From positions 1 through 48,205 of the forward strand of contig JAFDDT010000001.1 of NCBI GenBank assembly GCA_019310725.1: a stretch of 48,205 nt of DNA, in the 5' to 3' direction. The translations under genes were made by a program, and so were the position numbers. Shown here one piece after another: positions 1,063 to 15,968 of the stretch; positions within the stretch are counted from its first letter, which is position 1, and each line of letters opens with the position of its first letter. The DNA is from Deltaproteobacteria bacterium (GTDB lineage Bacteria; Desulfobacterota; DSM-4660; Desulfatiglandales; B25-G16). Under the pieces are notes generated by a model. The model was given only the letters and a program-made list of their open reading frames with translations. It was not told the DNA's origin and made no database searches.

Positions 1063-1087
1063 ATAAATGGAGACGGCTGTGGAGATA

Positions 1088-1765
1088 ATGAATGGTTTCA
1101 GAATTGAGCCTCGACCCACCATTCGGGAAGAGGTGTATGACTATCTTCGCCGAATGATTTTAGTTGGGAAGATCCGGAGCGGGCAAAGGTTGATGGAGGG
1201 AAAACTTGCTGAAGAGCTACGGATCAGCCGTACACCCATCCGTGAGGCTCTCAGCAAGCTCGAGATGGAGAAGTTGATTTACCCTGTACCAAAGGGTGGT
1301 TATGAGATCAGGGAATTCACAGAAAAAGAGGTGAAGGAGATTTGCGAAATACGAATGGTTACCGAGACCTTGGCGGCCAAATGGGCTGCACCGAAGATTA
1401 CCTCAATAGAATTTGAACGTCTGGATAGAATTATCCAACTAACGGATAAATACATTGATAGGCACGAGTCACAGAAGGTGGTTGAATTGGATACAGAGTT
1501 TCATGATATCATTTGTATTGCAAGCAGAAGCAAAATAATTGAGGAGATCAATCGCAGGCTAAGGGATCATATGCTTATGTTCAGAATGAAGGGTCTGTGC
1601 GTGGCTGACATTGCCCGCAGATCAAATGAAGGTCACAGGAGAATTGCGCGGGCCTTAGGCAAGCGGGACATCAAGGAGATTGAATCTGCCTTTAAGTACC
1701 ATCTTACTAGGACAAAGCGGGATGTCATCCAGATTATTAGGGATCAAGTAAGGGGCAGGAACTAG
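1088..1765 (+). CDS. GntR-family transcriptional regulator, FCD (FadR-like) subfamily
   Basis: An N-terminal winged helix-turn-helix (about residues 38-59, KLAEELRISRTPIREALSKL) is followed by an all-helical FCD ligand domain. Its usual metal/ligand residues are visible as D135, H139, H183 and H205 (numbered from 1088). I chose the ATG at 1088 because GGAG lies at 1081-1084; an in-frame ATG at 1067 has no ribosome site and sits against the operator. FCD regulators typically respond to organic acids or acyl compounds and repress nearby catabolic genes. The gene lies 64 bp upstream of the oxidoreductase genes and is probably in the same transcript, so a 2-oxo acid or an amino acid breakdown product is a reasonable effector. 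The effector itself cannot be read from the sequence. Confidence 0.9.
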   Translation: MNGFRIEPRPTIREEVYDYLRRMILVGKIRSGQRLMEGKLAEELRISRTPIREALSKLEMEKLIYPVPKGGYEIREFTEKEVKEICEIRMVTETLAAKWAAPKITSIEFERLDRIIQLTDKYIDRHESQKVVELDTEFHDIICIASRSKIIEEINRRLRDHMLMFRMKGLCVADIARRSNEGHRRIARALGKRDIKEIESAFKYHLTRTKRDVIQIIRDQVRGRN

Positions 1766-1829
1766 TGCTGAAATCCAAGAGGGTGTTATAAAAACAGGTT
1801 CACTCCACTAAGCTAACCGAGGATCAAAT

Positions 1830-2375
1830 ATGATTGAGATAAAATTTCAAGGTAGAGGAGGGCAGGGGGTTGTAGTTGCCTCTGAGATTCTTGCCCGAGC
1901 ATGTTTTGGACAGGGCAAGTATCCTCAGTGTTATTCCCTTTTCGGTGCTGAAAGGCGAGGGGCTCCTGTCGCTGCCTTTGTCAGGGTAAGTGATGAGAAG
2001 ATCTATCTTAAGTGTGATATCGATCATCCCAATCACCTCATTCTATTTGATACAACGCTTGTGAACGAAAAACAAATCAGTCAGCAGATGGTCCCCGGAG
2101 GATTTCTTTTGCGCAATGGAGATAACTCTTATAACAGTGATGCCCTGAAGTCACATACGGTGGGTAGCGTCGATGCGCTCAAGATTGCCAGGAAAAATGG
2201 ACTGGAGGCTATTGTGAATACAGCTATCCTGGGCGCGTATGTTCGGTTAACTGAAATTGTGAGCCTCGATACGCTCCTGAAGGTTATCAGAGACACGGTT
2301 CCCGGGGCCATTGATCAAAACGTAGCTGCAGCGCAAGAGGCTTATGAAAAACTTTCACTCCATCAAAAAATGTGA
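1830..2375 (+). CDS. 2-oxoacid:acceptor oxidoreductase, gamma subunit
   Basis: The 181-residue protein opens with the family signature IEIKFQGRGGQGVVVASEIL and carries YSLFGAERRGAPVAAFVRVS, typical of the gamma (PorG/VorC) subunit of ferredoxin-dependent 2-oxoacid oxidoreductases. It has the usual length of a stand-alone gamma subunit. GAGG at 1819-1822 precedes the ATG. It is followed after 6 bp by the NAD(P)/ferredoxin subunit and then by alpha and beta, so all parts of a complete enzyme are present. The enzyme converts a 2-oxo acid plus CoA to acyl-CoA and CO2 in the cytoplasm; the neighbouring aminotransferase suggests branched-chain 2-oxo acids, but pyruvate, aryl-glyoxylate or other substrates are not excluded. 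Confidence 0.9.
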   Translation: MIEIKFQGRGGQGVVVASEILARACFGQGKYPQCYSLFGAERRGAPVAAFVRVSDEKIYLKCDIDHPNHLILFDTTLVNEKQISQQMVPGGFLLRNGDNSYNSDALKSHTVGSVDALKIARKNGLEAIVNTAILGAYVRLTEIVSLDTLLKVIRDTVPGAIDQNVAAAQEAYEKLSLHQKM

Positions 2376-2381
2376 CCTCTC

Positions 2382-4145
2382 ATGGTAATGCGGTACAGAC
2401 CAAGGTTGAGAAGAGATGATCCATTTGTAGCTATCTCTTGTGATAATTCACTCTCTTTCAAAACCGGAACTCAGAGATCGGAAAGACCAGTTTTTATCAA
2501 TAAGATTGCCCCCTGTCGTCATGCGTGCCCCATCGGCATTGACATTTCCACCGCCTTTCATCTGGCATCGCAAGGGAATATTGATGGAGCGCTGCGGACG
2601 TATCTTCAGGACAATCCCTTGCCTGGTGTCTGCGGGAGGGTCTGCTATCACCCCTGTGAAGCGGAGTGTAGCCGAGGGAATTTTGACGAATCCATTAGTA
2701 TTCGGAGCTTTGAACGCTTTATCGCTGACCATGGTCAGGTGGATATAAGAGGGGATGTGCCGATTCATTCAAGAAAAGAAAAAATTGCGGTTATCGGTTC
2801 AGGCCCTGCTGGTTTGAGCACTGCCTACCATATGGCAAGATTAGGATATCAGGTAACCATATTTGAGGGGAGATCTGAAATCGGGGGTATGTTGCGCTAT
2901 GGCATCCCTTCGTATCGTCTGCCCCAGTCCGTTCTTAATCGTGACATTCAAAGAATCCAATCACTGGGAATAGACATACGGGGTAACACGACCGTGGGAA
3001 AAGAGGTGAGCTGGAAAGAACTTTCATCCTTTGATGCAGTCTTTCTTGCAGTTGGACTGCAATCTGGGAAAATCCTGTTCGAGCCTTTTGGCGTGGACTT
3101 CCCTGTCATCAGCGGTCTTGAATTTTTAGCTGATCCCCAAAAGTGGTCTCTCAGCGATTCTACCCAGAAAACCCTTATCATCGGTGGGGGGAATGTTGCT
3201 ATTGATGTAGCTCGAACGCTGCTGCGAGTTCGCAACGGGAATGGGGGTAATATTACAGTCATCTGCCCTGAATCTCGTGATCAGATGCCTTCACTTTCGG
3301 AAGAGGTGAACGAGGCATTAGAGGAGGGAATAAGCATTGTGAATGGCTGGGCTCCTGATAAGCTTCACAGAAAAGATAGGAAGCTTGTGTCTTTAGATTT
3401 TTATCAGGCGGAGGTGAGAATTGATGAGACGTCAGGTACATTGGAAATTATGCGAGTAGGAAAGAAAATCAAGAACCTTGCGGTTGATAAGCTCATTGTT
3501 GCCATCGGGCAGAGCATGGAGTCCGATATCCTGCCTCCGGGTATTGAAGTGAAAGGGGGCAAGGTTGTTGTGGATGAATGGGGGAGAACATCGCTCCCCA
3601 AGTTTTTTGCTGGTGGAGATGCAATCGGCGAAAAGGCCTTTGTGGCAGATGCTATTGCCAGCGGCAAACGGGGGGCCTTGGCAATTTCCTGTTTCCTGCA
3701 GGGCAGAGATGCTGTGTCAGAGTTTCAAGCCTATCACCTGGGAAAGAGCCATACGTTTTCCTTTCGACATTTCATCGAAGGCCCTGAAAATGATTCGGTT
3801 GATCTCAAAAGGGTGGTCTCTTTTGATCACATCAATACGCTCTTTTTTTCCGAGAGCCCTCGCAATAACCCTGATAGATTAGATCCCGGAACCAGAAAAA
3901 GCACCTTTGAGGAAGTAACCTGTGGGCTTGAGCCTCGTCAGATGGAGGAAGAAATTGCTCGCTGTTTTCGGTGCGGTACTTGTATTGACTGCGAAAATTG
4001 TCTGGATTTCTGTCCGGACATATCGATCATCAAAGATGCAGGGGTAGGGATGTATGGTTTTGATTCTGACTATTGTAAAGGTTGTGGCATGTGTTCGGTG
4101 GCCTGTCCGAGAGGTGTGGTTGAGATGGTGGAGGAGACAATATGA
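2382..4145 (+). CDS. GltD-like FAD/NAD(P) oxidoreductase fused to an 8Fe ferredoxin (delta) domain
   Basis: The 587-residue protein has three parts. First is an N-terminal iron-sulfur domain like that of glutamate synthase small subunit (C45, C49, C84, C88, C92, C96). Next is a two-dinucleotide-binding core with a GSGPAG FAD motif (139-144), the EGRSEIGGMLRYGIPSYRLP stretch and a second GGGNVAIDVA motif for NAD(P). Last is a C-terminal domain starting at C528 with two cysteine clusters (CGTCIDCENC and CKGCGMCSVAC). The last domain replaces the separate delta ferredoxin subunit of simple 2-oxoacid oxidoreductases, and the middle part lets electrons reach NAD(P)+. The arrangement recalls the PadH subunit of NAD-linked phenylglyoxylate dehydrogenase, though there delta is separate. 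Its stop overlaps the alpha subunit start by ATGA. Confidence 0.88.
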   Translation: MVMRYRPRLRRDDPFVAISCDNSLSFKTGTQRSERPVFINKIAPCRHACPIGIDISTAFHLASQGNIDGALRTYLQDNPLPGVCGRVCYHPCEAECSRGNFDESISIRSFERFIADHGQVDIRGDVPIHSRKEKIAVIGSGPAGLSTAYHMARLGYQVTIFEGRSEIGGMLRYGIPSYRLPQSVLNRDIQRIQSLGIDIRGNTTVGKEVSWKELSSFDAVFLAVGLQSGKILFEPFGVDFPVISGLEFLADPQKWSLSDSTQKTLIIGGGNVAIDVARTLLRVRNGNGGNITVICPESRDQMPSLSEEVNEALEEGISIVNGWAPDKLHRKDRKLVSLDFYQAEVRIDETSGTLEIMRVGKKIKNLAVDKLIVAIGQSMESDILPPGIEVKGGKVVVDEWGRTSLPKFFAGGDAIGEKAFVADAIASGKRGALAISCFLQGRDAVSEFQAYHLGKSHTFSFRHFIEGPENDSVDLKRVVSFDHINTLFFSESPRNNPDRLDPGTRKSTFEEVTCGLEPRQMEEEIARCFRCGTCIDCENCLDFCPDISIIKDAGVGMYGFDSDYCKGCGMCSVACPRGVVEMVEETI

Positions 4146-5311
4146 GGATGTTTCTCACCGGAAACCATGCTGCTGCTTACGGGGCAAAACTTTCAAGGCC
4201 TCAGGTCATTGCAGCGTATCCGATTACCCCACAGAGTCCCATTTATGAAAAGATTTCCGAATGGGATGGGCAAGGGGCATTGGGCGCTAGAATGATGAGA
4301 GTAGAATCGGAACATTCTGCCATGGCTGCCTCTATCTCCGCCTCGTTGACCGGTGCACGAACGTTTACAGCCACTGCATCACAAGGTATTGCCCTCATGC
4401 ATGAACTACTACACTTTGCCTCTGGGATGAGGGTTCCCATTGTTATGGTCAACGTCAACCGTTCTCTGGCAGCGCCATGGAGTTTTTGGAGTGAGCAGAC
4501 AGACAGCCTCTCCCAGAGAGACACGGGCTGGTTGAAATTCTACGTGGCCGATAATCAGGAGACCCTGGATACAGTTATCCAGGCCTTTAAGATATCTGAA
4601 ACCGTTTTTCTTCCCACCATGGTTGTTTTAGAGGCCTTTTATATCTCTCATTTTATGGAACCAGTTGAAGTGCCCGACCAGAAATTGGTTGACGACTTCT
4701 TGCCGCCTTTTGAACCTGCTTTCAGGTTGGACACAGATAACCCGGCCGCCTTTTCTCAGACAGTTACACAGAGTCAATACGCACAGTTCCGCATACAGCG
4801 GCACCAGGCCATGGAAGATGCCCTGGAGGTGGCCGGGGAGGTTGATATGGAATACCAAAAAGCGTTTGGCAGGGGATATGGGCTTTTAGAATCTTATCGT
4901 CTTGAGGATGCCGAGACTGTTCTGGTAACTGCCGGTACGATCGGCTGTACGGCACGGGTGGCAATCGATGAACTCCGGGAAGAAGGCAAGAAGGTGGGGA
5001 TGCTCCGCATTCGACTTTTTCGGCCCTTCCCCAAGGAACAATTGATTACATCTCTCAGGCATGCCAAAAAGATTGCCGTTATTGAACGGAATCTTTCTCC
5101 TGGCCAGGAAGGGATCTTTTGTGAGGAGTTGAAATCTGCACTCTATTCAAGGGTGAACGGGATACCGGTATGTGGGTTTGTTCTGGGACTGGGAGGAACG
5201 AATGTCTCACCGTTACATATCAAGAAGGTATTTGCTATAACGGAACAGATGAACGAGGCGCCTTTGAAGCCAATTTTAAATATTGAGGATGAAGATGCTT
5301 TCGGAATATGA
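4142..5311 (+). CDS. 2-oxoacid:acceptor oxidoreductase, alpha subunit
   Basis: The 389-residue protein shows the YPITPQSP motif (26-33) and VESEHS (54-59, with the glutamate that contacts thiamine diphosphate). It continues through the ATASQGIALMHE stretch and a C-terminal transketolase-C-like domain (VTAGTIG...RPFPKEQL). Length matches the PorA family. The ATG overlaps the stop of the preceding gene (4142-4145), and the 3-prime end overlaps the beta subunit start, so the three genes are translationally coupled. Together with beta it forms the catalytic core that binds thiamine diphosphate and decarboxylates the 2-oxo acid. Substrate specificity is not readable; context points to branched-chain or aromatic 2-oxo acids. 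Confidence 0.92.
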   Translation: MRMFLTGNHAAAYGAKLSRPQVIAAYPITPQSPIYEKISEWDGQGALGARMMRVESEHSAMAASISASLTGARTFTATASQGIALMHELLHFASGMRVPIVMVNVNRSLAAPWSFWSEQTDSLSQRDTGWLKFYVADNQETLDTVIQAFKISETVFLPTMVVLEAFYISHFMEPVEVPDQKLVDDFLPPFEPAFRLDTDNPAAFSQTVTQSQYAQFRIQRHQAMEDALEVAGEVDMEYQKAFGRGYGLLESYRLEDAETVLVTAGTIGCTARVAIDELREEGKKVGMLRIRLFRPFPKEQLITSLRHAKKIAVIERNLSPGQEGIFCEELKSALYSRVNGIPVCGFVLGLGGTNVSPLHIKKVFAITEQMNEAPLKPILNIEDEDAFGI

Positions 5312-6167
5312 GTATAGAGATAATCTCTATCCCGGGCATATGGCCTGTGCGGGCTGCGGCGAGGTGTTGGGACTGAAACTCGTTTTACAGGCGGTTGGGG
5401 AAAAGGCCATGGCTGTTGTGCTTCCGTCCTGTTTGGGAATTATTCTCGGGCCCTTTCCCTATACCACGTTTAAGATCCCCGTGTTTCATGCCGCATTTGA
5501 AACCGCTGCCTCAAGCGCTGCTGGAATATCCAATGCCCTTTTGGCACAAGGTGATGAAGAGACACAGGTAGTTGCCTTAGCCGGGGACGGGGGCACAGCG
5601 GACATTGGATTTCAGGCGCTCTCCGGTGCAGCCGATAGAGATGAGAATATTATCTACTGTTGTTTTGATAACGAGGCTTATATGAATACGGGGATTCAGT
5701 CGAGCTCTTCGACCCCTCAGCTCGCCTGGACTACGACCACACCCCTTGGAAAATCTTTGAAAAAGAAAAACATGGTAGAGATTATGGGGGCGCACAAGAT
5801 ACCCTATGCTGCCTCAGCGTGTTCCTGCTTCCCCGATGATCTGAGAAGAAAGATTTCAGAGGCAAAAAAGCTCAAGGGAACCAAATACATTCATATTCTC
5901 TCACCCTGCCCTACGGGATGGCGGTTTCCTGCGAGGTTGACGCCCAATGTGGGTCGGTTGGCTGTGGAGACAAAGTATTATCCCCTCTATGAAATAAGAA
6001 ACGGACAGGAATACACTATCACTCACCATCCCAAGAACCTTCCTGTTGAGAATTACCTTCTAGCACAGGGAAGGTTCAAGCACTTGACGAAAAAGGATCT
6101 GGAGGGAATACAGAAAGAGGTTGATGCCAGGTGGGGTGAGTTAACGAGAAGAGCTAATAAAAAATAA
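5295..6167 (+). CDS. 2-oxoacid:acceptor oxidoreductase, beta subunit (thiamine diphosphate)
   Basis: Cys ligands for a [4Fe-4S] cluster are seen at C18, C21 and C46, with a fourth in the PCPTGW motif. The thiamine-diphosphate/Mg motif is GDGG (97-100) to DNEAYMNTG (125-133). I chose the ATG at 5295 because TGAGG lies six bases upstream; a TTG at 5283 and an ATG at 5289 are in frame but poorer. The gene overlaps the alpha gene by 17 bp. It supplies the cofactor half of the active site and passes electrons to the fused ferredoxin/flavin subunit. Confidence 0.92.
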   Translation: MLSEYEYRDNLYPGHMACAGCGEVLGLKLVLQAVGEKAMAVVLPSCLGIILGPFPYTTFKIPVFHAAFETAASSAAGISNALLAQGDEETQVVALAGDGGTADIGFQALSGAADRDENIIYCCFDNEAYMNTGIQSSSSTPQLAWTTTTPLGKSLKKKNMVEIMGAHKIPYAASACSCFPDDLRRKISEAKKLKGTKYIHILSPCPTGWRFPARLTPNVGRLAVETKYYPLYEIRNGQEYTITHHPKNLPVENYLLAQGRFKHLTKKDLEGIQKEVDARWGELTRRANKK

Positions 6168-6185
6168 ATGCTAGTATAGTATTTA
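6165..6185. promoter_or_regulatory. Small inverted repeat at the end of the oxidoreductase genes
   Basis: TAAATGCTA and TAGTATTTA (9 bp, one G-T pair) with a 3-base loop overlap the stop of the beta subunit gene. It is too AT-rich and lacks a T tract for a clear terminator; it might be a weak hairpin or a protein site. It lies 29 bp before the aminotransferase start. Confidence 0.3.
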
Positions 6186-6214
6186 CTCAAACTTAAAAAA
6201 GCATGAGGGGGACT

Positions 6215-7129
6215 ATGATAAAAGGAAAGAAAATTTGGTTAAACGGAAGGATGGTTGACTGGGATGAAGTTAAAGTTCACATCGTCAGTGAGACGTTTAG
6301 TTATGGATACGGAGTGTTCGAAGGTATTCGGTGTTATAAAACGAAAAATGGCAGGGCTGTCTTTCGACTCCATGAGCATATGGAACGGTTAATAAACTCT
6401 GCCAAGATTCTATTTATGAATATCCCTTACTCCAGGGATGAGTTGGTTGCGGCTGCGCATGAGGCGGTCAAAGCCAATAATTTCGAAGAGTGCTATATGC
6501 GGCCGTATGTCTACGTGAGTACCTATGGGGAAAGCACCTGGGATTTCAGAAAAGCCGCTGTTGACGTGGCAATTGCTGTCTGGGATTGGGGCAGTTACAT
6601 GAATGAAAAGGCCTTGACCGAAGGGATTCGCGTGAAGACCAGTTCTTACACCCGGCACCATGTCAACGTCAGCATGACAAAGTCAAAGGCCAACGCAAAC
6701 TACATAAACTTTGCCCTTGCTCGAGGCGAGGCTCTCCGAGCAGGATTTGACGAGGCCCTCTTGCTGGATGTCAATGGATTCGTAGCTGAGGGGCCGGTTG
6801 AAAATATCTTCATGGTTAAACGGGGGGAAATTATAACACCGCCTCTCACCTCCATTCTTGAAGGCATTACCAGGGATTCTATCCTGACGATAGCCGGTGA
6901 TCAGGGGATTCAGTGTCGGGAGGAGTTTTTCACCCGGGACCAGGTCTATACTGCGGAAGAGGTATTCTTCTGTGGGACCGCGGCTGAGGTTACACCGGTA
7001 CGGGAGATCGACTATATTGCCATCGGAAAGGGTGTCCCTGGGCCTATCACTAAGAAATTGGTGAAGCTTTTCTTCGATATTGTCCGGGGAAAAGAGGAAA
7101 AGTGCTCTGAATGGCTTTCTTTTGTCTGA
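6215..7129 (+). CDS. ilvE: Branched-chain amino acid aminotransferase (class IV, PLP)
   Basis: The product of 304 residues (from the ATG at 6215) has the class IV aminotransferase fold. It opens with IWLNGRMVDWDEVKVHIVSE, followed by FSYGYGVFEGIRCY. The PLP lysine is in KANANY (K158, close to K159 of the E. coli enzyme), and EGPVENIFMV plus GTAAEVTPV follow. A GAGGGGG ribosome site at 6205-6211 supports this start over the ATG at 6203, which overlaps that site. It interconverts leucine, isoleucine and valine with their 2-oxo acids. Directly behind a 2-oxoacid oxidoreductase it probably works in the degradative direction, feeding branched-chain 2-oxo acids to it. D-amino acid aminotransferase is a less likely alternative. 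Confidence 0.9.
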   Translation: MIKGKKIWLNGRMVDWDEVKVHIVSETFSYGYGVFEGIRCYKTKNGRAVFRLHEHMERLINSAKILFMNIPYSRDELVAAAHEAVKANNFEECYMRPYVYVSTYGESTWDFRKAAVDVAIAVWDWGSYMNEKALTEGIRVKTSSYTRHHVNVSMTKSKANANYINFALARGEALRAGFDEALLLDVNGFVAEGPVENIFMVKRGEIITPPLTSILEGITRDSILTIAGDQGIQCREEFFTRDQVYTAEEVFFCGTAAEVTPVREIDYIAIGKGVPGPITKKLVKLFFDIVRGKEEKCSEWLSFV

Positions 7130-7521
7130 TCCTCTTATGTTCATCTTTAGTGGCCTTCGAGAATGTTCAAAAAGGATTCCATGAAGGATTCAAAAAGGTT
7201 TATAGATACTACTGGGTGCGCTAGGTCGCCTCCAGACACGCAAAGTCAGAACTTCCAGCAGGGTTTTAATTGAGGGGCCAGTTAAAAATTTGTATAGTTA
7301 TGGCTCAGAATAAGTAAGAATACGAGGGAATTAGTCTTGAACTAATTGAGCAACAAAACAAAAGGGTGGGGTGAGACTAGTTTCGAGAAAATTTTTCCAA
7401 ATTGGCAATTTTCAGGAATGCCAACTTGTTCGCTCCCTTGTTGGAAGCTGCGGATTTTTATATGAAATTGGAAAAACTATATTGATTTTCTATTCAATTT
7501 CTTACTTAAGAGGGAGAAAAT
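7130..7521. other. Intergenic region before the ureohydrolase gene
   Basis: No gene is recognised. A 10-base direct repeat TTCAAAAAGG occurs at 7166-7175 and 7189-7198, and a weak inverted repeat TTGGCA (7402-7407)/TGCCAA (7419-7424) lies about 100 bp before the ureohydrolase. I looked for guanidine riboswitch signatures (ykkC, mini-ykkC ACGR loops, guanidine-III) and saw no convincing match. Confidence 0.45.
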
Positions 7522-8481
7522 ATGCAGAAGAAAAAACTCAACCTTCCGTTCACCGGTATTACGTCATTCTGCAAACTTCCGGTTTGCGAAGAATGGGATA
7601 GATTGGATACCGATGTTGCTGTTTTGGGAGTTCCTTTTGACATGAGCACTCAATGCAAACCTGGTGCCAGATACGGCCCGCGGGGGATTCGCGAAGCATC
7701 CGCTATTTATTCCTTACAAGATGTTGGCTATTATGATCACGAATTTGATGAGTATTTTTTAGAAGGAGTACATATTGTCGACTGTGGGGATGTAGACATG
7801 ATACACATGGACCCGCAACGCTGCTTGCAAAATGCCTATGACGATGCAATGGAAATAAATTCTAAGAATGTGTTATTGGTTGTAATGGGAGGAGATCATG
7901 CTGTCCCTGTACCTGTGGTCCGCAGTTTAAAGGACAAAGGACCTTTGCATATAGTTCAGTTCGACGCACACTTGGATTTTGTAGATGAGCGTTTTGGGGT
8001 TCGTGAAGGGCACGGCAACCCCATGCGCCGTATCTCCGAGATGGAACATGTGTCAGGCATCACACAGATAGGGATACGAGGTCCGGGCAGCAGCAGTCGA
8101 GAGGACTTTGACGACGCACGGGCTTATGGGTCTACAATTATTGGCCCACGAGAGTTCCGGCGGCTGGGGGCCAAAGGAGTAGCGGCCAAGCTGCCTGAAA
8201 AAGCCCAGTTTTATGTGACAATAGATTGCGACGTATTAGATCCGTCCCTGGCGCCTGGCACTGGCTCGCCTTCACCTGGAGGGCTGGATTATTATGAACT
8301 GACTGATGCACTTCGGGGTGTAGCGGCACAGGGCGAGGTAATTGGGTTTGATTTTTGTGAAGTAGCGCCTATGTACGACCCATCTGGTATAACATGCCAA
8401 GTTGCAGCTCGCGTTATATTGGATTTCATAGGAGCGATTTTCAAGGAAAAAAAGAAAAGGTTATCATTATTAGAACGTTAG
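7522..8481 (+). CDS. Ureohydrolase (agmatinase/guanidino-hydrolase family), substrate unassigned
   Basis: The 319-residue protein has every binuclear metal ligand of the ureohydrolase fold: H126 in GGDH, D148, H150 and D152 in DAHLD, and D235 and D237 in DCDVLDP. It also has E280 in FCEVAP. The numbering nearly equals that of E. coli agmatinase. The substrate loop after DAHLD reads GHGNPMRR, unlike the SHGT-type loop of agmatinase, so agmatine is doubtful. Members of this family release urea from arginine, agmatine, guanidinobutyrate, guanidinopropionate, formimidoylglutamate or guanidine. It heads a transporter cluster with a creatininase homologue, so a guanidino compound such as creatine is a testable substrate. 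AGGGAG precedes the ATG. Confidence 0.85.
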   Translation: MQKKKLNLPFTGITSFCKLPVCEEWDRLDTDVAVLGVPFDMSTQCKPGARYGPRGIREASAIYSLQDVGYYDHEFDEYFLEGVHIVDCGDVDMIHMDPQRCLQNAYDDAMEINSKNVLLVVMGGDHAVPVPVVRSLKDKGPLHIVQFDAHLDFVDERFGVREGHGNPMRRISEMEHVSGITQIGIRGPGSSSREDFDDARAYGSTIIGPREFRRLGAKGVAAKLPEKAQFYVTIDCDVLDPSLAPGTGSPSPGGLDYYELTDALRGVAAQGEVIGFDFCEVAPMYDPSGITCQVAARVILDFIGAIFKEKKKRLSLLER

Positions 8482-8548
8482 GGTTAGGGTGTTCGTCATT
8501 GTTCCAGTAATACTATTATAAACAGAAGAAAAAAGGAGGTACAAGAAA

Positions 8549-9532
8549 ATGGCTAGAAAAATCAAGATGTTGTCAATTTACTTAGTGGCATTTGCATTTG
8601 TCGTCGCTAGTGTTGGTGTCTCTCCAGCACTTGGGGCGAGACAGCTTAAGGTTGCTGCAGTTATGCCAGGTACAATCACCGATGGATCGTTCAATCAGTC
8701 TTGTTACGAAGGTTTAAAGGTTATCGAAAAAAAACTGGGAGCACAAATTGCTTTCAGTGAGAGGGTGTCACAAGCAGATCAAGTGGAGAATATAATAGAC
8801 TACGCAAGGCGCGGCTATGACCTTGTAATAGCCCATGGAGGTGAAATGGATGATGCTGCAATGAAAGTGGCTAAGAAATTTCCAAAAGTAAAATTTTTTG
8901 TAACAAACGGAAACGCCAAAGGACCTAACGTAGCAAACGGCAGCGTTAATCCGACCCATTATGGTTACGTGTGCGGCGTGGTCGGTGCAAAAATGACAAA
9001 AACGAATAAGCTAGCCTGTGTCGCAGGAAATGAATTTGCACTTGTGGTTGCTGTTTACGAATCATTCAAGAAAGGCGTCAGGGATTACAATCCAGACGCA
9101 GATGTTGGCATGATTTATACAGGTAGTTGGGATGATGTAGCTAAGGCAAAAGAAGCAGCTTTAGCTCAAATCGCCATTGGTGTTGATGTACTTTTTCCAG
9201 TTTTGGATCTGGCAACACTGGGAATCATAGAAGGGGCACGAGAAGAAGGTGTCTATGTATTTGGCTTCAGTAAGGATCAGCTTGACGCCGCCCCAAAAAA
9301 TGTCTTATGCAGTGCCATCCAAAATTATTCGGCTATTTTATTACACATTGCTAAGCTCGTCAAAGAGGGAAAGTTTGAGGGAGGCAAATCCTATGCTCTT
9401 GGCTTTGAAACGCCAGGTGTCACAGGCCTCGGCCGAATCAATAAGATCGTTCCACAGGAAGTGAGAGACCTAGTCAAGAAAGCTGAGGGAGATCTTATTA
9501 GTGGAAGGATTGAACCGTACCCCTGGCCTTGA
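8549..9532 (+). CDS. BMP-family ABC transporter substrate-binding protein
   Basis: A strong AAGGAGGT precedes the ATG. The 327-residue product has a signal peptide (about residues 1-30, hydrophobic core then SPALGA) and no lipobox cysteine, so it should be periplasmic. The mature part shows the Bmp/PnrA pattern: VMPGTITDGSFNQSCYEG, IAHGGEMDD, NGSVNPTHYGYVCGVVGA and a C-terminal LGRINKIVPQEVRDL. Family members bind nucleosides or related heterocycles for CUT2-like importers. Placement after the ureohydrolase and near a creatininase suggests a small cyclic guanidino ligand. A fragment homologous to its own last 40 codons follows directly (9525-9644). Confidence 0.9.
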   Translation: MARKIKMLSIYLVAFAFVVASVGVSPALGARQLKVAAVMPGTITDGSFNQSCYEGLKVIEKKLGAQIAFSERVSQADQVENIIDYARRGYDLVIAHGGEMDDAAMKVAKKFPKVKFFVTNGNAKGPNVANGSVNPTHYGYVCGVVGAKMTKTNKLACVAGNEFALVVAVYESFKKGVRDYNPDADVGMIYTGSWDDVAKAKEAALAQIAIGVDVLFPVLDLATLGIIEGAREEGVYVFGFSKDQLDAAPKNVLCSAIQNYSAILLHIAKLVKEGKFEGGKSYALGFETPGVTGLGRINKIVPQEVRDLVKKAEGDLISGRIEPYPWP

Positions 9533-9644
9533 GAGTCCGGGTATCATAGGACCCGGCCGAGTCAACACGATCGTTCCCCAGGAAGTCAGAGAGCTATTCA
9601 AAGAAGCTACTGAAGATCCCGTTGCCGGCAAGGTTGAGTTCTAA
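9525..9644 (+). pseudogene. Duplicated 3-prime fragment of a second BMP gene
   Basis: In the frame GGC (9525-9527) to TAA (9642-9644) the translation contains GLESPGI, GRVNTIVPQEVREL, AGKVEF and a stop. This matches, residue for residue, the tail of the intact BMP protein just upstream (GFETPGV, GRINKIVPQEVRDL, SGRIEP). It overlaps the intact gene's stop by 8 bases in another frame. It looks like the remnant of a tandem paralogue left after recombination within the shared GFETPG region; it has no start of its own. Confidence 0.85.
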
Positions 9645-9663
9645 ACATGTCTCCTCATCTCCG

Positions 9664-9702
9664 GTGCCGACTTCGTTTACTTTCCCACCACGAAGTCGGC
9701 AC
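9664..9702. terminator. Perfect 13-bp hairpin between binding-protein and ATPase genes
   Basis: GTGCCGACTTCGT (9664-9676) pairs exactly with ACGAAGTCGGCAC (9690-9702) around a 13-base loop. No T tract follows, so it is more likely an mRNA-stabilising or attenuating hairpin that raises binding-protein levels relative to the membrane genes than a classical terminator. Confidence 0.6.
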
Positions 9703-9887
9703 GGAATAATGGAGGGCATTAAAACTGTTAGACTACCTTTTCGATGCTAGTCTTCAGCGTGTCTGTTTTAATTATAGATTGGAGCACCAGGGCCAAGTAA
9801 GTATTTCGTTTAAACTGGCTTGGGCATACATGAATAAGCAGGTTTTCAAGTTGCTGGCGAATAGGGGTTCCTGAAGAGAGGGCCATC

Positions 9888-11426
9888 ATGCCATTTCTAG
9901 AGATGAAAAATATCTCCAAACGGTTTGTAGATGTGGTAGCGAATGACCGCGTTTGCTTTGACGTCGAACGGGGAGAAGTTCACACTCTGCTAGGTGAAAA
10001 TGGTGCTGGGAAAAGCACCTTGATGAACATCCTTTACGGGTTATACAGCCCCGATGAAGGGGAAATCTATATGGAGGGAAACCTGGTAAAGATATCATCA
10101 CCTTATGACGCCATCGAACTCCACATTGGAATGATACACCAACATTTCACGCTCATTCCCAATCTTTCAGTTACAGAGAATATTATACTGGGCCTACCAT
10201 CCTCAAGTGGTTTTTTGCTCGAGCTCAAAAAAGCAGAGGAAAATATCGATAATATTTCCCGGAAATATGAGCTTCGCGTTGACCCAAAGTCATTAGTCCG
10301 CCAACTACCTGTAGGGTTACAACAGCGTGTCGAAATTCTGAAAGCTCTCTACCGAAATACTGATATTTTGATTCTCGATGAACCCACTTCAGTTCTGACT
10401 CCATTAGAAGTTGAGATCTTTTTCAAAATCATTCGGAGGTTTACGGAAGATGGCCTTGCTGTCATTTTTATAAGTCATAAGCTTAATGAGGTCATGAGTA
10501 TAAGTGACAGGATAACGGTTTTGAGAGGAGGCAATGTCGTCGGCACACTAAAAAAGCTTGATACCGACGCGAATAAATTGGCGGGAATGATGGTCGGTAA
10601 AGAAATTACACTTAGTTTGGACAAACCGAGTGTAAAAAAAGGAAAAAGATTGTTAGAGGTCCGTGGTCTCAGTGTCAATAGTGAAAAGGGTGGCAAGCCA
10701 CTTGTCAACAACGTTTCCTTCGATATCCATGAAGGTGAGATCCTTGGAGTCGCCGGGGTTGATGGGAACGGGCAGGGTGAATTGGCAGATGCGATTGCAG
10801 GTTTACAGCCAGTAAGTAAAGGACAAATTTTGATTAACGGAATGGATGTCGCCCATCTTTCTCCTAGAAAACGAATTGAGAGGAAATTAGGGTATATCCC
10901 TTCTGATCGTCAACGAGTTGGCTTGATTGTGGATTTTTCGGTAGCGCAGAATCTGGTCCTAAAAAATTTCTGCGATCCGCCATTTTCCACACGGCGTCTT
11001 TTTCTTAGTCATAAAAATATCACCAGCAATGCTGACCAAATGATCAAAGAATTTGATATCAAAGTGAGCCATGGGAACGAGAAGGTTGCGTTTCTTTCAG
11101 GTGGAAACCAGCAGAAGGTTATTCTGGCGAGGGAGATCTCTGGGAAACCGGATGTGCTTATTGCGATGCAGCCTACCCGCGGACTTGACGTGGGCTCGAC
11201 AAGATACGTCCACCAGTGCATCCTCCAGCACCGAGAACAAGGGGGAGCCACCCTATTCATTTCAACGGAGCTCGATGAAGTGATTGCCATTAGTGACCGA
11301 ATTGGGGTCATGTTTGAGGGCGAGATCATGGGTATTATCCCCGGAGGTGATAGAGCCGACCTCGAGCAGATAAGCCTGATGATGGCTGGTGTGCGTGAAC
11401 AGAAGACCAAGAAGAGCGTCTCATGA
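9888..11426 (+). CDS. ABC transporter ATP-binding protein with two ABC domains (nucleoside/CUT2-like)
   Basis: Both halves of a duplicated ATPase are present in 512 residues. The first has Walker A GENGAGKST (36-44), LPVGLQQRVEIL and Walker B ILILDEPTS. The second has a reduced Walker A (GVDGNGQGEL), signature LSGGNQQKVILAREI and AMQPTRGLDVG in place of DEPT, the usual form in YufO/NupA-type proteins. It energises import by the two permeases that follow. AGAGAGGG lies upstream of the ATG, and the stop overlaps the first permease start (ATGA, 11423-11426). Confidence 0.92.
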   Translation: MPFLEMKNISKRFVDVVANDRVCFDVERGEVHTLLGENGAGKSTLMNILYGLYSPDEGEIYMEGNLVKISSPYDAIELHIGMIHQHFTLIPNLSVTENIILGLPSSSGFLLELKKAEENIDNISRKYELRVDPKSLVRQLPVGLQQRVEILKALYRNTDILILDEPTSVLTPLEVEIFFKIIRRFTEDGLAVIFISHKLNEVMSISDRITVLRGGNVVGTLKKLDTDANKLAGMMVGKEITLSLDKPSVKKGKRLLEVRGLSVNSEKGGKPLVNNVSFDIHEGEILGVAGVDGNGQGELADAIAGLQPVSKGQILINGMDVAHLSPRKRIERKLGYIPSDRQRVGLIVDFSVAQNLVLKNFCDPPFSTRRLFLSHKNITSNADQMIKEFDIKVSHGNEKVAFLSGGNQQKVILAREISGKPDVLIAMQPTRGLDVGSTRYVHQCILQHREQGGATLFISTELDEVIAISDRIGVMFEGEIMGIIPGGDRADLEQISLMMAGVREQKTKKSVS

Positions 11427-12502
11427 ATCTGAATTGGAAACGGACCGCGTTATCCCTGAGCCCGATCTGGGCTACACTTGTTGCGCTGGCATTGGGAGCC
11501 GGGCTCATTTTGTTAGCAGGTTTAAATCCCATTAAAGCTTACTATGCCCTCTTTATGGGTGCCTTCTCCAACATTTATGGCATAAGCTCGACTCTGACCA
11601 AAACGACTCCCCTTATCTTCGCAAGTCTGGGGGTAGCCCTGGCATTTAAGGGTGGATATTTTAATGTCGGGGCCGAGGGACAATTGTACCTGGGAGGTCT
11701 CGGCGCTACCCTGGCCGGTCTATACATACACGGGCTTTCCCCTCTCTTACACATTCCAGTCACCCTTACTGCAGGCTTTGTTGCTGGAGGCATTTGGTCG
11801 CTCATTCCAGGCTACCTGAAGGCCAGACATGAGGTCAACGAAATCATCACATGCATATTCATGTATTTTATTGGCCTTTTGTTCATTGAATATATGGCTT
11901 CCGGACCTCTATTTGAACCGGGAGCCCCTGCTGCTATGTCCCGTGAAATAGCAGCATCGGCTCAGCTTCCCATCATTATTCCAAACACAGATGTACACCT
12001 TGGTTTTCTTATGTCCCTGGCTTTGGTTTTCATTATGCACTTGGTCTTAACAAAAACTACTATCGGATATCAAATCACAGCTATGGGGCTTAATCCGGTT
12101 GCGTCTCGGTACGCTGGAGTGAACATTGTAAAGGACATGTGTGTTCTCTCCTTCGTGAGTGGGGGTCTGGCTGGATTGGCAGGGGCGTCAGAAATCATGG
12201 GTCTTAAGCACCGGCTCTTTGACGCCTTTTCGCCCGGTTATGGACTGGATGCCATTGTTATCGCGTTTTTGGCAAAAAGTAACCCCATAGGGGTAATGGT
12301 TGCTTCTCTGTTTTTTGGCGCCCTTAGGAGCGGAGCTGGCATGATGCAACGGGCAGCCGGTGTGCCGACCACCGCAGTTCTTGCAATTCAAGGACTCGTG
12401 ATCCTGTTTGTTGCCATAAGCCTCGTGCTTCCCCAGTGGCGGCCCCGATGGTTTCGAGCAGATATGGATAAGGAAACCCCTCGTAAAAAAGAGAATGAGT
12501 AA
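11423..12502 (+). CDS. ABC transporter permease (YufP/NupP-like, BPD_transp_2)
   Basis: This 359-residue integral membrane protein has about nine hydrophobic segments. The conserved GGYFNVGAEGQLYLGGLGA stretch is typical of nucleoside/BMP-linked permeases, as is the late segment GLDAIVIAFLAKSNPIGVM. It starts inside the stop of the ATPase gene and ends in a one-base overlap (TAATG) with the second permease. The pair forms the inner-membrane channel for the BMP-bound ligand. Confidence 0.92.
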   Translation: MNLNWKRTALSLSPIWATLVALALGAGLILLAGLNPIKAYYALFMGAFSNIYGISSTLTKTTPLIFASLGVALAFKGGYFNVGAEGQLYLGGLGATLAGLYIHGLSPLLHIPVTLTAGFVAGGIWSLIPGYLKARHEVNEIITCIFMYFIGLLFIEYMASGPLFEPGAPAAMSREIAASAQLPIIIPNTDVHLGFLMSLALVFIMHLVLTKTTIGYQITAMGLNPVASRYAGVNIVKDMCVLSFVSGGLAGLAGASEIMGLKHRLFDAFSPGYGLDAIVIAFLAKSNPIGVMVASLFFGALRSGAGMMQRAAGVPTTAVLAIQGLVILFVAISLVLPQWRPRWFRADMDKETPRKKENE

Positions 12503-13440
12503 TGTGGTCAATCGTTTTCAACGCATCATTTATAACAGATTTTATGGCGGCAGCGATCCGTATGACTACGCCATTGACATTCGCCGGACTCTCCTGCACC
12601 ATCTCCGAGCGTTCAGGGGTTTTTAACATAGGTGCCGAAGGCATGATGCTTTCAGGCGCATTTGTTGCGGCGGTCGGCGCTCTATTCACAGGCAGCGCGT
12701 GGATTGGAACCGGATTTGCGTGCATTATAGGGGCCTTGTTGGGATTATTGCTTGCCGTTCTTTCGATTACCTTAGGGGCTAATCAAATTATATCAGGAGT
12801 CATGATTAATATCCTGTCGCTAGGCTTGACCAGTTTTTTATCCAGAATCATTATGGGTTCGGCTATCACCCAAAAACTCCCCACTTTTGAAACATGGGGC
12901 ATTCCATTTCTTTTAAAAATTCCAGTCTTCGGTGAAATTTTCTTTAGGCAAAGCCCACTTTCTTACATCTCTTACGCTATTGCAATCATATTAACGTTTA
13001 TTTTCTTTAAAACAACGTGGGGATTGTCTATCCGAGCTGCTGGGGAAAACCCCCGGGCCGTTGATACAGCAGGAATCAATGTTTGTTTGGTTAGGTACAT
13101 ATGTGTTATGTTCAGCGGGATTTTTGCTTCTCTGGGTGGTGCTTTCTTATCGGTGGGGGTAGTTCGATATTTTACAGAAAATATGAGTGCAGGGCGTGGG
13201 TTCATTGGACTGTGTATCGTGATATTGGGAAAATGGCACCCCTTGGGTGCGGTATTGGCTGCACTCATCTTTGGCGCAGTGGATGCCCTTCAATTAAGGC
13301 TTCAGGCTTTTCAAGTGGGGATACCTTATCAATTTCTAGTCATGCTTCCTTATATCTTCGGCTTTATTGCTATCAGTGGGGTTGTCGGACGCGCACAATC
13401 TCCAGAGGCGGTTGGCAAACCTTACCTAAAGGAAAGTTAG
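12502..13440 (+). CDS. ABC transporter permease (YufQ/NupQ-like, BPD_transp_2)
   Basis: The 312-residue membrane protein carries SGVFNIGAEGMMLSGAFVAA near the start, matching the motif in its partner permease, and GRGFIGLCIVILGKWHPLG near the end. The ATG shares one base with the previous TAA. As the shorter partner of the heterodimeric channel it completes the BMP/ATPase/permease importer. No other function is likely. The next gene begins about 250 bp downstream. Confidence 0.92.
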   Translation: MWSIVFNASFITDFMAAAIRMTTPLTFAGLSCTISERSGVFNIGAEGMMLSGAFVAAVGALFTGSAWIGTGFACIIGALLGLLLAVLSITLGANQIISGVMINILSLGLTSFLSRIIMGSAITQKLPTFETWGIPFLLKIPVFGEIFFRQSPLSYISYAIAIILTFIFFKTTWGLSIRAAGENPRAVDTAGINVCLVRYICVMFSGIFASLGGAFLSVGVVRYFTENMSAGRGFIGLCIVILGKWHPLGAVLAALIFGAVDALQLRLQAFQVGIPYQFLVMLPYIFGFIAISGVVGRAQSPEAVGKPYLKES

Positions 13441-13689
13441 ATTATCTATTCAAGGCGAGTCATTACTGAAAGAATAGGATTTTCGGTTTTGACCTCTATG
13501 TTGTCTCCTAATGCATGATTTTCGTGGAATACTCAAAAAATAGACTGCAAAGATTATCTTTGTTTTTTAATATCCACATTGATCAGGCAAAAAAAGATTC
13601 ATAACCCCCCTTTTTTTGATAAATGGATCTTGTGCGGCTTTTCGGTAATGAGTAAAAAATTAAAAAAATTTGGAAAAAGGAGGATACAG
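13441..13689. other. Spacer between permease and creatininase genes
   Basis: No gene is seen in about 250 bp. The frame of the creatininase gene stays open upstream into this spacer, but without a ribosome site; an AAAAGGAGG lies only at the 3-prime end. Whether a separate promoter is present is not clear. Confidence 0.4.
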
Positions 13690-14451
13690 ATGTGTGGAAA
13701 ATACGTTTTGATGGAAGAATTAACGTGGTACGAGTATGCTGAAAGGGTCAAGAAGGATGTTATTCTCTTGCCGGTAGGATCGACGGAACAGCACGGCCCG
13801 CATCTACCGCTCGGGACAGATGCCATACAAATCATGCACTTTTCGAAACTGGCGGCAGAAAGGATTGGTGGAATTGTTGCTCCGGTTTTAAGTTATGGTT
13901 ATAAATCTCAGCCTAAAAGCGGAGGGGGCCCCAACTTTCCCGGGACAACCTGTCTCGGTGCGGAGGCATTGATTTTTGCTGTTCGAGATATCCTCAAGGA
14001 ACTCATTCGCCATGGGGCTAATAAAATATGGATTATGGATGGTCATTATGAAAATGCTATGTTCCTGTCTGAGGCTATCGATATGGCTTTAGATGAAACA
14101 CGCGCCAAGGATGTAAAGATTCTCAAAAACTGTTTTATAGAATTTCTAAATGAAGATGATATAAGTACAGTATTTCCCAAAGGGTTTCCCGGATGGGATC
14201 TAGAGCATGCTGCAATCCTGGAAACCTCTCTCATGCTCTACTTCAGGCCTGACCTCGTTAGGTTGGATCGGGTTGTCGCGGACAAAGCGGAGAATTTACC
14301 ACCTTACGACATTTATCCTGCCCCCAAAGACATCATACCGTCTTCTGGGATCTTGGCAGATCCTACAGACGCCTCTGCAGAAAAAGGAGAATACATTGTC
14401 AGGCGGTGTCTTGAGGAATTCGAAAAATACATCAGAAAAGAATTTGATTAG
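13690..14451 (+). CDS. Creatininase (creatinine amidohydrolase) family, close to true creatininases
   Basis: From the ATG at 13690, preceded by AAAAAGGAGG, the product is 253 residues, the usual family length. Binuclear metal ligands fall at E33, H35, D44, H119 and E121, one position off those of Pseudomonas creatininase (E34, H36, D45, H120, E122). From memory, several longer stretches also resemble the true enzyme: ELTW-x-EY at the start, YGYKSQ-x-KSGGG, GHYEN, GWD-x-EH with ETSLML, and PPYD near the end. W174 of creatininase corresponds to W169 here, while the W154 position appears to be I150. The reaction would be creatinine plus water to creatine. Other family members act on other cyclic amides, so the substrate needs testing. 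Confidence 0.82.
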   Translation: MCGKYVLMEELTWYEYAERVKKDVILLPVGSTEQHGPHLPLGTDAIQIMHFSKLAAERIGGIVAPVLSYGYKSQPKSGGGPNFPGTTCLGAEALIFAVRDILKELIRHGANKIWIMDGHYENAMFLSEAIDMALDETRAKDVKILKNCFIEFLNEDDISTVFPKGFPGWDLEHAAILETSLMLYFRPDLVRLDRVVADKAENLPPYDIYPAPKDIIPSSGILADPTDASAEKGEYIVRRCLEEFEKYIRKEFD

Positions 14452-14684: not shown

Positions 14685-15968
14685 ATGGAATATTATATTA
14701 ACTATGAAGGTGAGAAGATCTATTTTTCGCTTCCGGGGAAATGGAACTCGATCTGCGATCAAGACAAACCCCCTATTTCCGGGGTTAGCGACCCGCTCCA
14801 AGAAATCAGGCGTGCCTTAGAAGAGCCCATTGGATCACCAGGGATCGAAGAACTCGCCCGGCCTGGGATGGAGGTTGTCATTTTGTTCGACGATCTTCAG
14901 CGGCCGACACCGGCCCACCTTGCTTTGCCACAGATTATGGATCTGTTGAACCACGCCGGCATACCTGACGAACGGATTACCGGGATCTGTGCTGTAGGAA
15001 CCCACCCGAGACCCTCTCTGGAGCAACTAGAAGTAAAGGTGGGGAAAGAGGCCTTTTCTCGTTTGCAGGATCGTATTTTCTCTCACGATCCACATGCCCC
15101 TGATAATGTTATTATCGGCAGAAGCCACTGGGGGACCCTCGTAGAAGTCAACAGGCGGGTTGCATTTGCCGATTTGATCATTGGCATCGGAGAATGTATG
15201 CCCCATCCTATTGCTGGATTTGGAGGGGGATGTAAGATCATCATACCCGGGGTATGCTCCTATCGTTCTGTAGCCGACCATCATTTTACCTGGATGCGTC
15301 ACCCAAATAGTAAGGTCAATCTTTTGGACGGTAACTACTTTTACGAAGACATTGTAGATGCTGGGCGCCTCGCGAGATTTACATTTAAGCTTGATCTCAT
15401 CATTAATGAAAAAAAGGAGGTCATCCGTGCCTTTGCAGGAGATCCTGTGGCAGAGCACAGAGAGGCCTCTCAATACGCGGCTTCACTTTACTTGATTCAT
15501 CTTCCGAAGCTCGCAGATGTTACCATTATCTCCGCCTTTCCTTTAGAAGTGGGGGTTCAGGCATCCAAGGCTCTGGACATGGCGGCCTTTTGCACACGAT
15601 CAGGGGGGGCGATTATCTGGGTTGCCCCACAAAAAGAAGCAGGCCCTATAATGCCTCTGATTCGAGAGATGGGAAGCCCTGAAAGTGCCGGTGATTTTCA
15701 TCGCCGGCTGATTGAAGGGGATGTCCCTGATCACTTGAAAGCGTTTGGGATTTCTTACATCATGCAGGTTGTTTACTACAAGGCAAAGGCCGAAAGATTT
15801 ACCGTTTTCCATGTATGCGATGGCCTTTCACCGGAGCAGGTGAGGATGATGAATTTCACCTATGCGCCAAGCATTCAAGAGGCAATTCATCAGGTGTCTG
15901 AAACGATGCCCCAGGCAGATGTTGCAGTTTTTCCATCAGGTGGTACCATTATTCCGGAGGTGCAGTGA
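14685..15968 (+). CDS. larA: LarA-type nickel-pincer enzyme (lactate racemase homologue)
   Basis: The 427-residue protein has DDLQRPTP (69-76), GTHPRPS with H107, H174 in CMPHPIAGFGGG, K184 in GGCKIIIPG and H200 in DHH. These coincide almost exactly with H108, H174, K184 and H200 of Lactiplantibacillus LarA. Those residues hold the nickel-pincer nucleotide and do the hydride-transfer chemistry, so the protein should be active. LarA homologues racemise or epimerise various 2-hydroxy acids; the substrate here is not clear. The cofactor genes larB, larC and larE are not in the window. GGAG precedes the ATG. It follows the creatininase gene by 233 bp, so it may or may not belong to the same pathway. 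Confidence 0.85.
   Translation: MEYYINYEGEKIYFSLPGKWNSICDQDKPPISGVSDPLQEIRRALEEPIGSPGIEELARPGMEVVILFDDLQRPTPAHLALPQIMDLLNHAGIPDERITGICAVGTHPRPSLEQLEVKVGKEAFSRLQDRIFSHDPHAPDNVIIGRSHWGTLVEVNRRVAFADLIIGIGECMPHPIAGFGGGCKIIIPGVCSYRSVADHHFTWMRHPNSKVNLLDGNYFYEDIVDAGRLARFTFKLDLIINEKKEVIRAFAGDPVAEHREASQYAASLYLIHLPKLADVTIISAFPLEVGVQASKALDMAAFCTRSGGAIIWVAPQKEAGPIMPLIREMGSPESAGDFHRRLIEGDVPDHLKAFGISYIMQVVYYKAKAERFTVFHVCDGLSPEQVRMMNFTYAPSIQEAIHQVSETMPQADVAVFPSGGTIIPEVQ

Follow-up and report, generated by a model that had tools for sequence, protein, structure and literature searches.

What becomes of a cyclic guanidino compound in a bacterium that encodes a creatininase-like enzyme and a ureohydrolase side by side? 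In the aerobic creatinine pathway, creatininase (EC 3.5.2.10) is followed by an M24-family creatinase (EC 3.5.3.3), a member of the one enzyme family credited with splitting creatine into sarcosine and urea. We analyzed a window of 48,205 nucleotides, the whole stretch of DNA considered here, in which genes for a creatininase-type protein, an ABC importer, and a ureohydrolase lie together. A preliminary description had read them as a system that would import creatinine or a similar lactam, open its ring, and release urea from the product.

Results

Layout of the Cluster

The six genes of that description are all present on the plus strand, and we moved only the start of the creatininase gene. 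The cluster opens with a ureohydrolase (UreoH, 7522..8481; PF00491, E 6e-74, 249.5 bits), proposed to be a creatine or short guanidino-acid amidinohydrolase. The importer genes follow in one run: a BMP/PnrA-type substrate-binding protein (8549..9532; PF02608, E 6e-59), an ABC transporter ATPase with two ABC domains (9888..11426; recognized by PF00005 in two stretches and by synteny), and two permeases of the PF02653 (BPD_transp_2) family (11423..12502 and 12502..13440). The last gene encodes the creatininase-type cyclic amidohydrolase, CrnA (13690..14451; TIGR04448, PF02633). From UreoH to CrnA, the intergenic gaps are 67, 355, -4, -1, and 249 bases. The longest open reading frame of CrnA begins at TTG 13579, a start given by the longest-frame rule only; the likely start is ATG 13690, which lies after AAAAAGGAGGATACAG. 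Good ribosome sites precede UreoH, the BMP gene, and ATG 13690, and the other members of the CrnA clade also begin at the position of this ATG.

Upstream, a class IV aminotransferase of the branched-chain type (BCAT, 6203..7129, plus strand; TIGR01122, 394 bits against a cut-off of 245.6) belongs to the same conserved block, with the same position in the related loci L039 and L040. It also ends an operon-like block (1067-7129) that comprises a GntR/FCD regulator, 2-oxoacid:ferredoxin oxidoreductase-like subunits, and a GltD-like protein. Downstream lies a homologue of the LarA-type nickel-pincer-dependent racemases (14685..15968, plus strand; PF09861, under all NCBIfam LarA cut-offs). It is the next gene in both the window's genome and a congener (seen in L040 and L010), and is at most a candidate member of the pathway. 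No Rfam family was found in the window, and thus no guanidine riboswitch was recognized; promoter and terminator scans of the window gave chance-level results.

Conservation and Linkage

We compared the window's genome (G000, 93% complete) with 84 others of its class. The order BCAT-UreoH-BMP-ABC-permease-permease-CrnA is kept in three genomes from two families: G000, its congener G013, and G078, which represents a second genus in another family. On the G078 contig (L039) the block is preceded by an Lrp gene; in G013 (L040) it reads por-BCAT-FeS-UreoH-BMP-ABC-perm-perm-CrnA-LarA. UreoH is 84% identical to the L039 copy and 82% identical to the L040 copy. Among the 85 class genomes, these three alone have a creatininase above the TIGR04448 cut-off, and they alone have BMP relatives at E < 1e-50; the close relatives of UreoH occur in the same three. 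The BMP subfamily adjoins an over-cut-off creatininase in all four of its loci. Co-occurrence in 3 of 85 genomes has a chance probability of 1e-5 if genomes are assumed to be independent, which they are not. A 395-genome sample of the phylum yielded no further over-cut-off creatininase, and UreoH relatives only at 42-46% identity. The linkage of UreoH, the BMP transporter, and CrnA, for which the preliminary description had suggested looking in other genomes, thus extends over two families of the class, and the cluster is carried by only two lineages. The synteny, together with dN/dS values between 0.04 and 0.39 across the cluster genes, shows that these are maintained protein-coding genes.

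The congener shows a further feature of the ureohydrolase slot. Its UreoH copy (L040 4066-5025) is 75.5% identical in DNA to that of the window, while its neighbors are 88-98% identical, with strong purifying selection; a related gene therefore entered this slot, by replacement or by recombination. G013 thus retains UreoH in the same place though the copy is far more diverged than the genes around it. The same copy has a premature stop, TGA at codon 25, and could be a gene in decay unless this codon is an assembly error.

G013 also contains a second creatininase, 86% identical to CrnA, on contig L044 (G013:C64, 10747-17537). Downstream of it come a distinct BMP-ABC-permease set, at 37-48% identity, and an Asp/Glu/hydantoin racemase, and no UreoH is present within the contig searched. 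On the same contig, separated from this locus by a transposase, a relative of L-arginine:glycine amidinotransferase and SxtG (6808-7956, E 4e-52) lies beside ArgR- and CarAB-like genes; it is a possible source of guanidinoacetate-like compounds in this close relative.

CrnA as a Creatininase-Type Enzyme

The preliminary description had called CrnA a creatininase homologue with its metal ligands, and the alignment bears this out. CrnA (CREATININASE) scores 323 bits on the NCBIfam creatininase equivalog TIGR04448, for which the cut-off is 235, whereas the two other large creatininase-family proteins of G000 score about 124 bits. It is 48% identical to the Pseudomonas putida creatininase and 30% identical to its own-genome paralogue, and is creatininase-type rather than a generic amidohydrolase. 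In P. putida numbering, the metal ligands E34, H36, D45, H120, and E122 and the catalytic H178 are all present, as are S78, Y121, and W174. Y121, W154, and W174 are substrate residues in the P. putida structures, although they are not known to be essential throughout the family, and Trp154 lies on the substrate flap. This last position is Ile in CrnA, and each of the four copies in its clade has Ile or Met there, whereas it is Trp in every creatinase-linked homologue aligned. CrnA is thus of the creatininase type but altered at one of the substrate positions.

Two further results bear on the substrate. The tree places P. putida creatininase inside the creatinase-linked clade (99/98) and the CrnA clade outside it. 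TIGR04448 also accepts Salipiger and Rhizobium proteins that carry W174I in other contexts, so that the model score by itself is no proof of creatinine as the substrate. One divergent creatininase-family paralogue of G000 (L046, G000:C245, 1057-9615) has 5-oxoprolinase-like genes on one side and a branched-chain amino-acid-type ABC transporter on the other, and may serve another lactam.

UreoH and the Ureohydrolase Family

UreoH was said to have all its metal ligands, and its metal-site motifs GGDH, DAHLD, and DCDVLD are indeed intact and kept in the aligned relatives. NCBI models would label it an agmatinase, with 185 bits on TIGR01230 against a cut-off of 174. In the tree, UreoH falls in a clade of its own, apart from GbuA, GpuA, PAH, and the E. 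coli agmatinase (SpeB). The sisters of this clade are alpha- and betaproteobacterial proteins of about 50% identity (100/98), whose neighbors are mixed: amino-acid transporters or other genes, and no adjacent creatininase. The sisters therefore do not fix the substrate. In Leisingera, one sister copy has a DMGDH-like oxidoreductase and an MttB protein in its neighborhood, which is suggestive at most. Another UreoH gene stands on a short contig (L041) beside an amino-acid-type ABC ATPase, with no creatininase.

Loop A, which follows DAHLD, shapes specificity in ureohydrolases (PMC8125230). In UreoH this loop has R157, found in 9 of the 9 relatives compared, and R161, found in 8 of the 9. The two residues are compatible with an acidic head group in the predicted substrate; this argues only weakly, because an aligned Arg also occurs in a Deinococcus agmatinase. 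AlphaFold models, each resting on a three-sequence alignment, were of low quality (pLDDT 66 and 56). A scan over all species, made with a single-sequence query, returned only three close relatives of UreoH, and linkage beyond the phylum was judged from plasmids only; scans of viral contigs gave no useful relative.

Partners of Creatininase in Other Loci

If UreoH takes the place of a creatinase, creatininases elsewhere should reveal which partner normally occupies it. We examined 17 plasmid loci with creatininases 39-48% identical to CrnA. Twelve of them encode an M24 protein that matches its Paracoccus aminovorans counterpart at 66-100% identity, the latter being a creatinase by comparison with the solved structures 7yto, 1kp0, and 1chm (E down to 1e-261), and two of the 12 also have a sarcosine oxidase. 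Three loci have a cytosine or nucleoside deaminase, one of them with the hydantoinase and isochorismatase-type genes of the N-methylhydantoin route, and a Salipiger locus has neither M24 protein nor deaminase. In the remaining one, on a plasmid of Rhizobium sp. CIAT894 (L082 7989-9719), the creatininase, which carries W174I and S78T, is followed directly by a ureohydrolase of the 3-guanidinopropionase type. Together with the window's cluster, this pair shows creatininase joined to two different ureohydrolase subfamilies.

The lack of an M24 gene in the cluster, as first described, holds, and extends to the genome: no M24 protein found in G000 is a creatinase, the best M24 matches being 23-33% identical and the full-length one resembling Xaa-Pro dipeptidase. 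The congener has an M24 protein whose best solved match is the creatinase 1chm, at about 31% identity (L091 1519-2655, G013:C321); it is unlinked to the cluster and adjoins a branched-chain amino-acid-type binding protein. Searches of G000 gave no urease, urea amidolyase, or GRDB-type glycine/sarcosine/betaine reductase component B above cut-off, and MttB was not found there.

The BMP-Type Transporter

To describe BMP importers as known mainly for nucleosides proved too restrictive, since guanine and 2-hydroxyatrazine are ligands of AtzT (PMC6834077). Because bases and 2-hydroxyatrazine are already known as ligands, a ligand beyond nucleosides would not be new for the family. Of the AtzT residues around guanine, the window's BMP protein has the two aromatic ones that sandwich the base, with Phe for Tyr45 and with Trp194, and lacks the purine-contacting Glu165 and Ser97. 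By inference only, these residues suggest that its ligand would be a flat ring other than guanine.

Discussion

The best reading of the locus is that a ureohydrolase fills the slot of creatinase, because the genes are linked, M24 proteins are the usual partners elsewhere, the Rhizobium plasmid offers a second creatininase-ureohydrolase pair, and G000 has no recognizable creatinase. The BMP-type ABC transporter would bring in creatinine or a cyclic guanidino lactam very close to it, and ring hydrolysis by CrnA would yield creatine or the corresponding linear guanidino acid. As a two-metal ureohydrolase, UreoH would then attack the guanidinium carbon and release urea and an amine, sarcosine if the acid is creatine; it would stand in for the M24 creatinase that serves this step in the known pathway and is unrelated to it. 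We give this reading a probability of about 0.5. The gene families, the intact catalytic motifs, the conserved linkage, and the lack of a recognizable creatinase in G000 are observed; we infer the substrates, the direction of flow, and the transporter ligand. The wider claim, in which CrnA and then UreoH work on some cyclic guanidino lactam, is probable, while creatinine and creatine as such are about an even bet as the substrates. Of the earlier proposal, then, the sequence of import, opening, and urea release has gained from the type of CrnA, the linkage, the M24 partners of its relatives, the missing creatinase, and the Rhizobium pair. Its choice of creatinine is weakened by the loss of W154 in 4 of 4 copies and by the tree, where the P. 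putida enzyme belongs to a clade that excludes CrnA, and its creatine hydrolase by the agmatinase score of UreoH (185 versus 174 bits) and by sisters that do not lie beside a creatininase. The retention of UreoH in its slot in G013, despite the divergence of that copy, and the loop A arginines speak for the creatinase-slot reading. Against it stand the stop codon in the same G013 copy, the UreoH gene of L041 with no creatininase, the failure of human AGMAT to hydrolyze creatine or guanidinoacetate (PMC9772407), the lack of an over-cut-off urease, urea amidolyase, or GRDB-type reductase in G000, and the restriction of the cluster to two lineages.

CrnA could instead open another 2-imino-imidazolidinone or guanidino lactam, such as glycocyamidine, and UreoH could release urea and an amino acid from the product; with glycocyamidine this would be glycine, and the neighboring aminotransferase might use the amino acid. 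We consider this possible, at something like one chance in four. Besides the clade-wide loss of Trp154 and the place of CrnA in the tree, it would account for the aminotransferase kept beside UreoH in two families, since sarcosine is a secondary amine and thus no aminotransferase substrate, and the Rhizobium plasmid joins a W174I creatininase to a guanidinopropionase-type enzyme. However, creatinine is the one substrate for which this creatininase type is well known, CrnA keeps W174, Y121, and H178, and the aminotransferase, which trails the 2-oxoacid oxidoreductase operon in the window, may belong there.

It is rather unlikely that UreoH is an agmatinase or other ordinary ureohydrolase in an incidental location, with CrnA working with the transporter alone. 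The TIGR01230 score just above cut-off would fit this, as would the UreoH without CrnA on the short contig L041 and the second creatininase-BMP locus of G013, where the contig searched holds no UreoH. Against it, the order is conserved in two families with UreoH 84% identical, UreoH is separate from the E. coli agmatinase in the tree, and a creatinase occupies the same slot in most other creatininase loci. Least probable of all, and quite improbable, is a nucleoside or base system, in which the BMP protein would import a nucleoside or damaged purine product and the hydrolases would act on ring-opened guanidino or ureido fragments. BMP ligands are mostly nucleosides or bases, such as the guanine of AtzT (PMC6834077), and the closest solved sequences to the BMP protein include such binders. 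But a reading of the larger open reading frames of the 48-kb window revealed no nucleosidase, phosphorylase, or purine-degrading gene, only the aromatic sandwich of AtzT is kept and not its E165 and S97, and CrnA is creatininase-type.

The creatinase-slot reading sets the cluster beside several known systems. It shares with the aerobic creatinine pathway a creatininase-type first enzyme, a dedicated importer in the locus, and guanidino-acid hydrolysis as the expected second step, but that second enzyme is a two-metal ureohydrolase rather than an M24 creatinase, and the importer is BMP-type whereas those of the plasmid loci are of the spermidine/putrescine type or a cytosine permease. With its PF02608 binding protein, two PF02653 permeases, and ATPase, the importer resembles those of the PnrA/BmpA/AtzT type, none of which, to our knowledge, has been described for creatinine. 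GbuA, GpuA, and human AGMAT/GDAH have the same PF00491 domain and metal motifs as UreoH, and their substrates are linear guanidino acids, which they split into urea and an amino acid, but UreoH forms a separate clade and shares about 34% identity with a GpuA-type relative. The Rhizobium pair, in which creatininase likewise adjoins a ureohydrolase, differs in the subfamily of that ureohydrolase, in the W174I and S78T changes, and in its transporter. Tissierella creatinophila, which ferments creatinine via creatine and sarcosine, is similar in having creatininase genes and no detected creatine amidinohydrolase (creatinase) gene (PMC5364220). We found no report of a ureohydrolase acting on creatine, or of a creatininase-agmatinase cluster, in the open-access papers searched, which is not proof of absence.

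At slightly less than even odds, the cluster would encode a creatine amidinohydrolase from the arginase family and a creatinine importer of the BMP type, each the first of its kind, and might explain creatine cleavage in anaerobes that have no creatinase. If so, it would represent a known pathway with one enzyme replaced by an unrelated one. A creatine ureohydrolase would widen the substrate range of a family in which the human enzyme, AGMAT (GDAH), does not hydrolyze creatine or guanidinoacetate (PMC9772407), and it would correct genes now annotated as agmatinase. It would also be a named, testable candidate for gaps at the cleavage step, such as that of T. creatinophila (PMC5364220).
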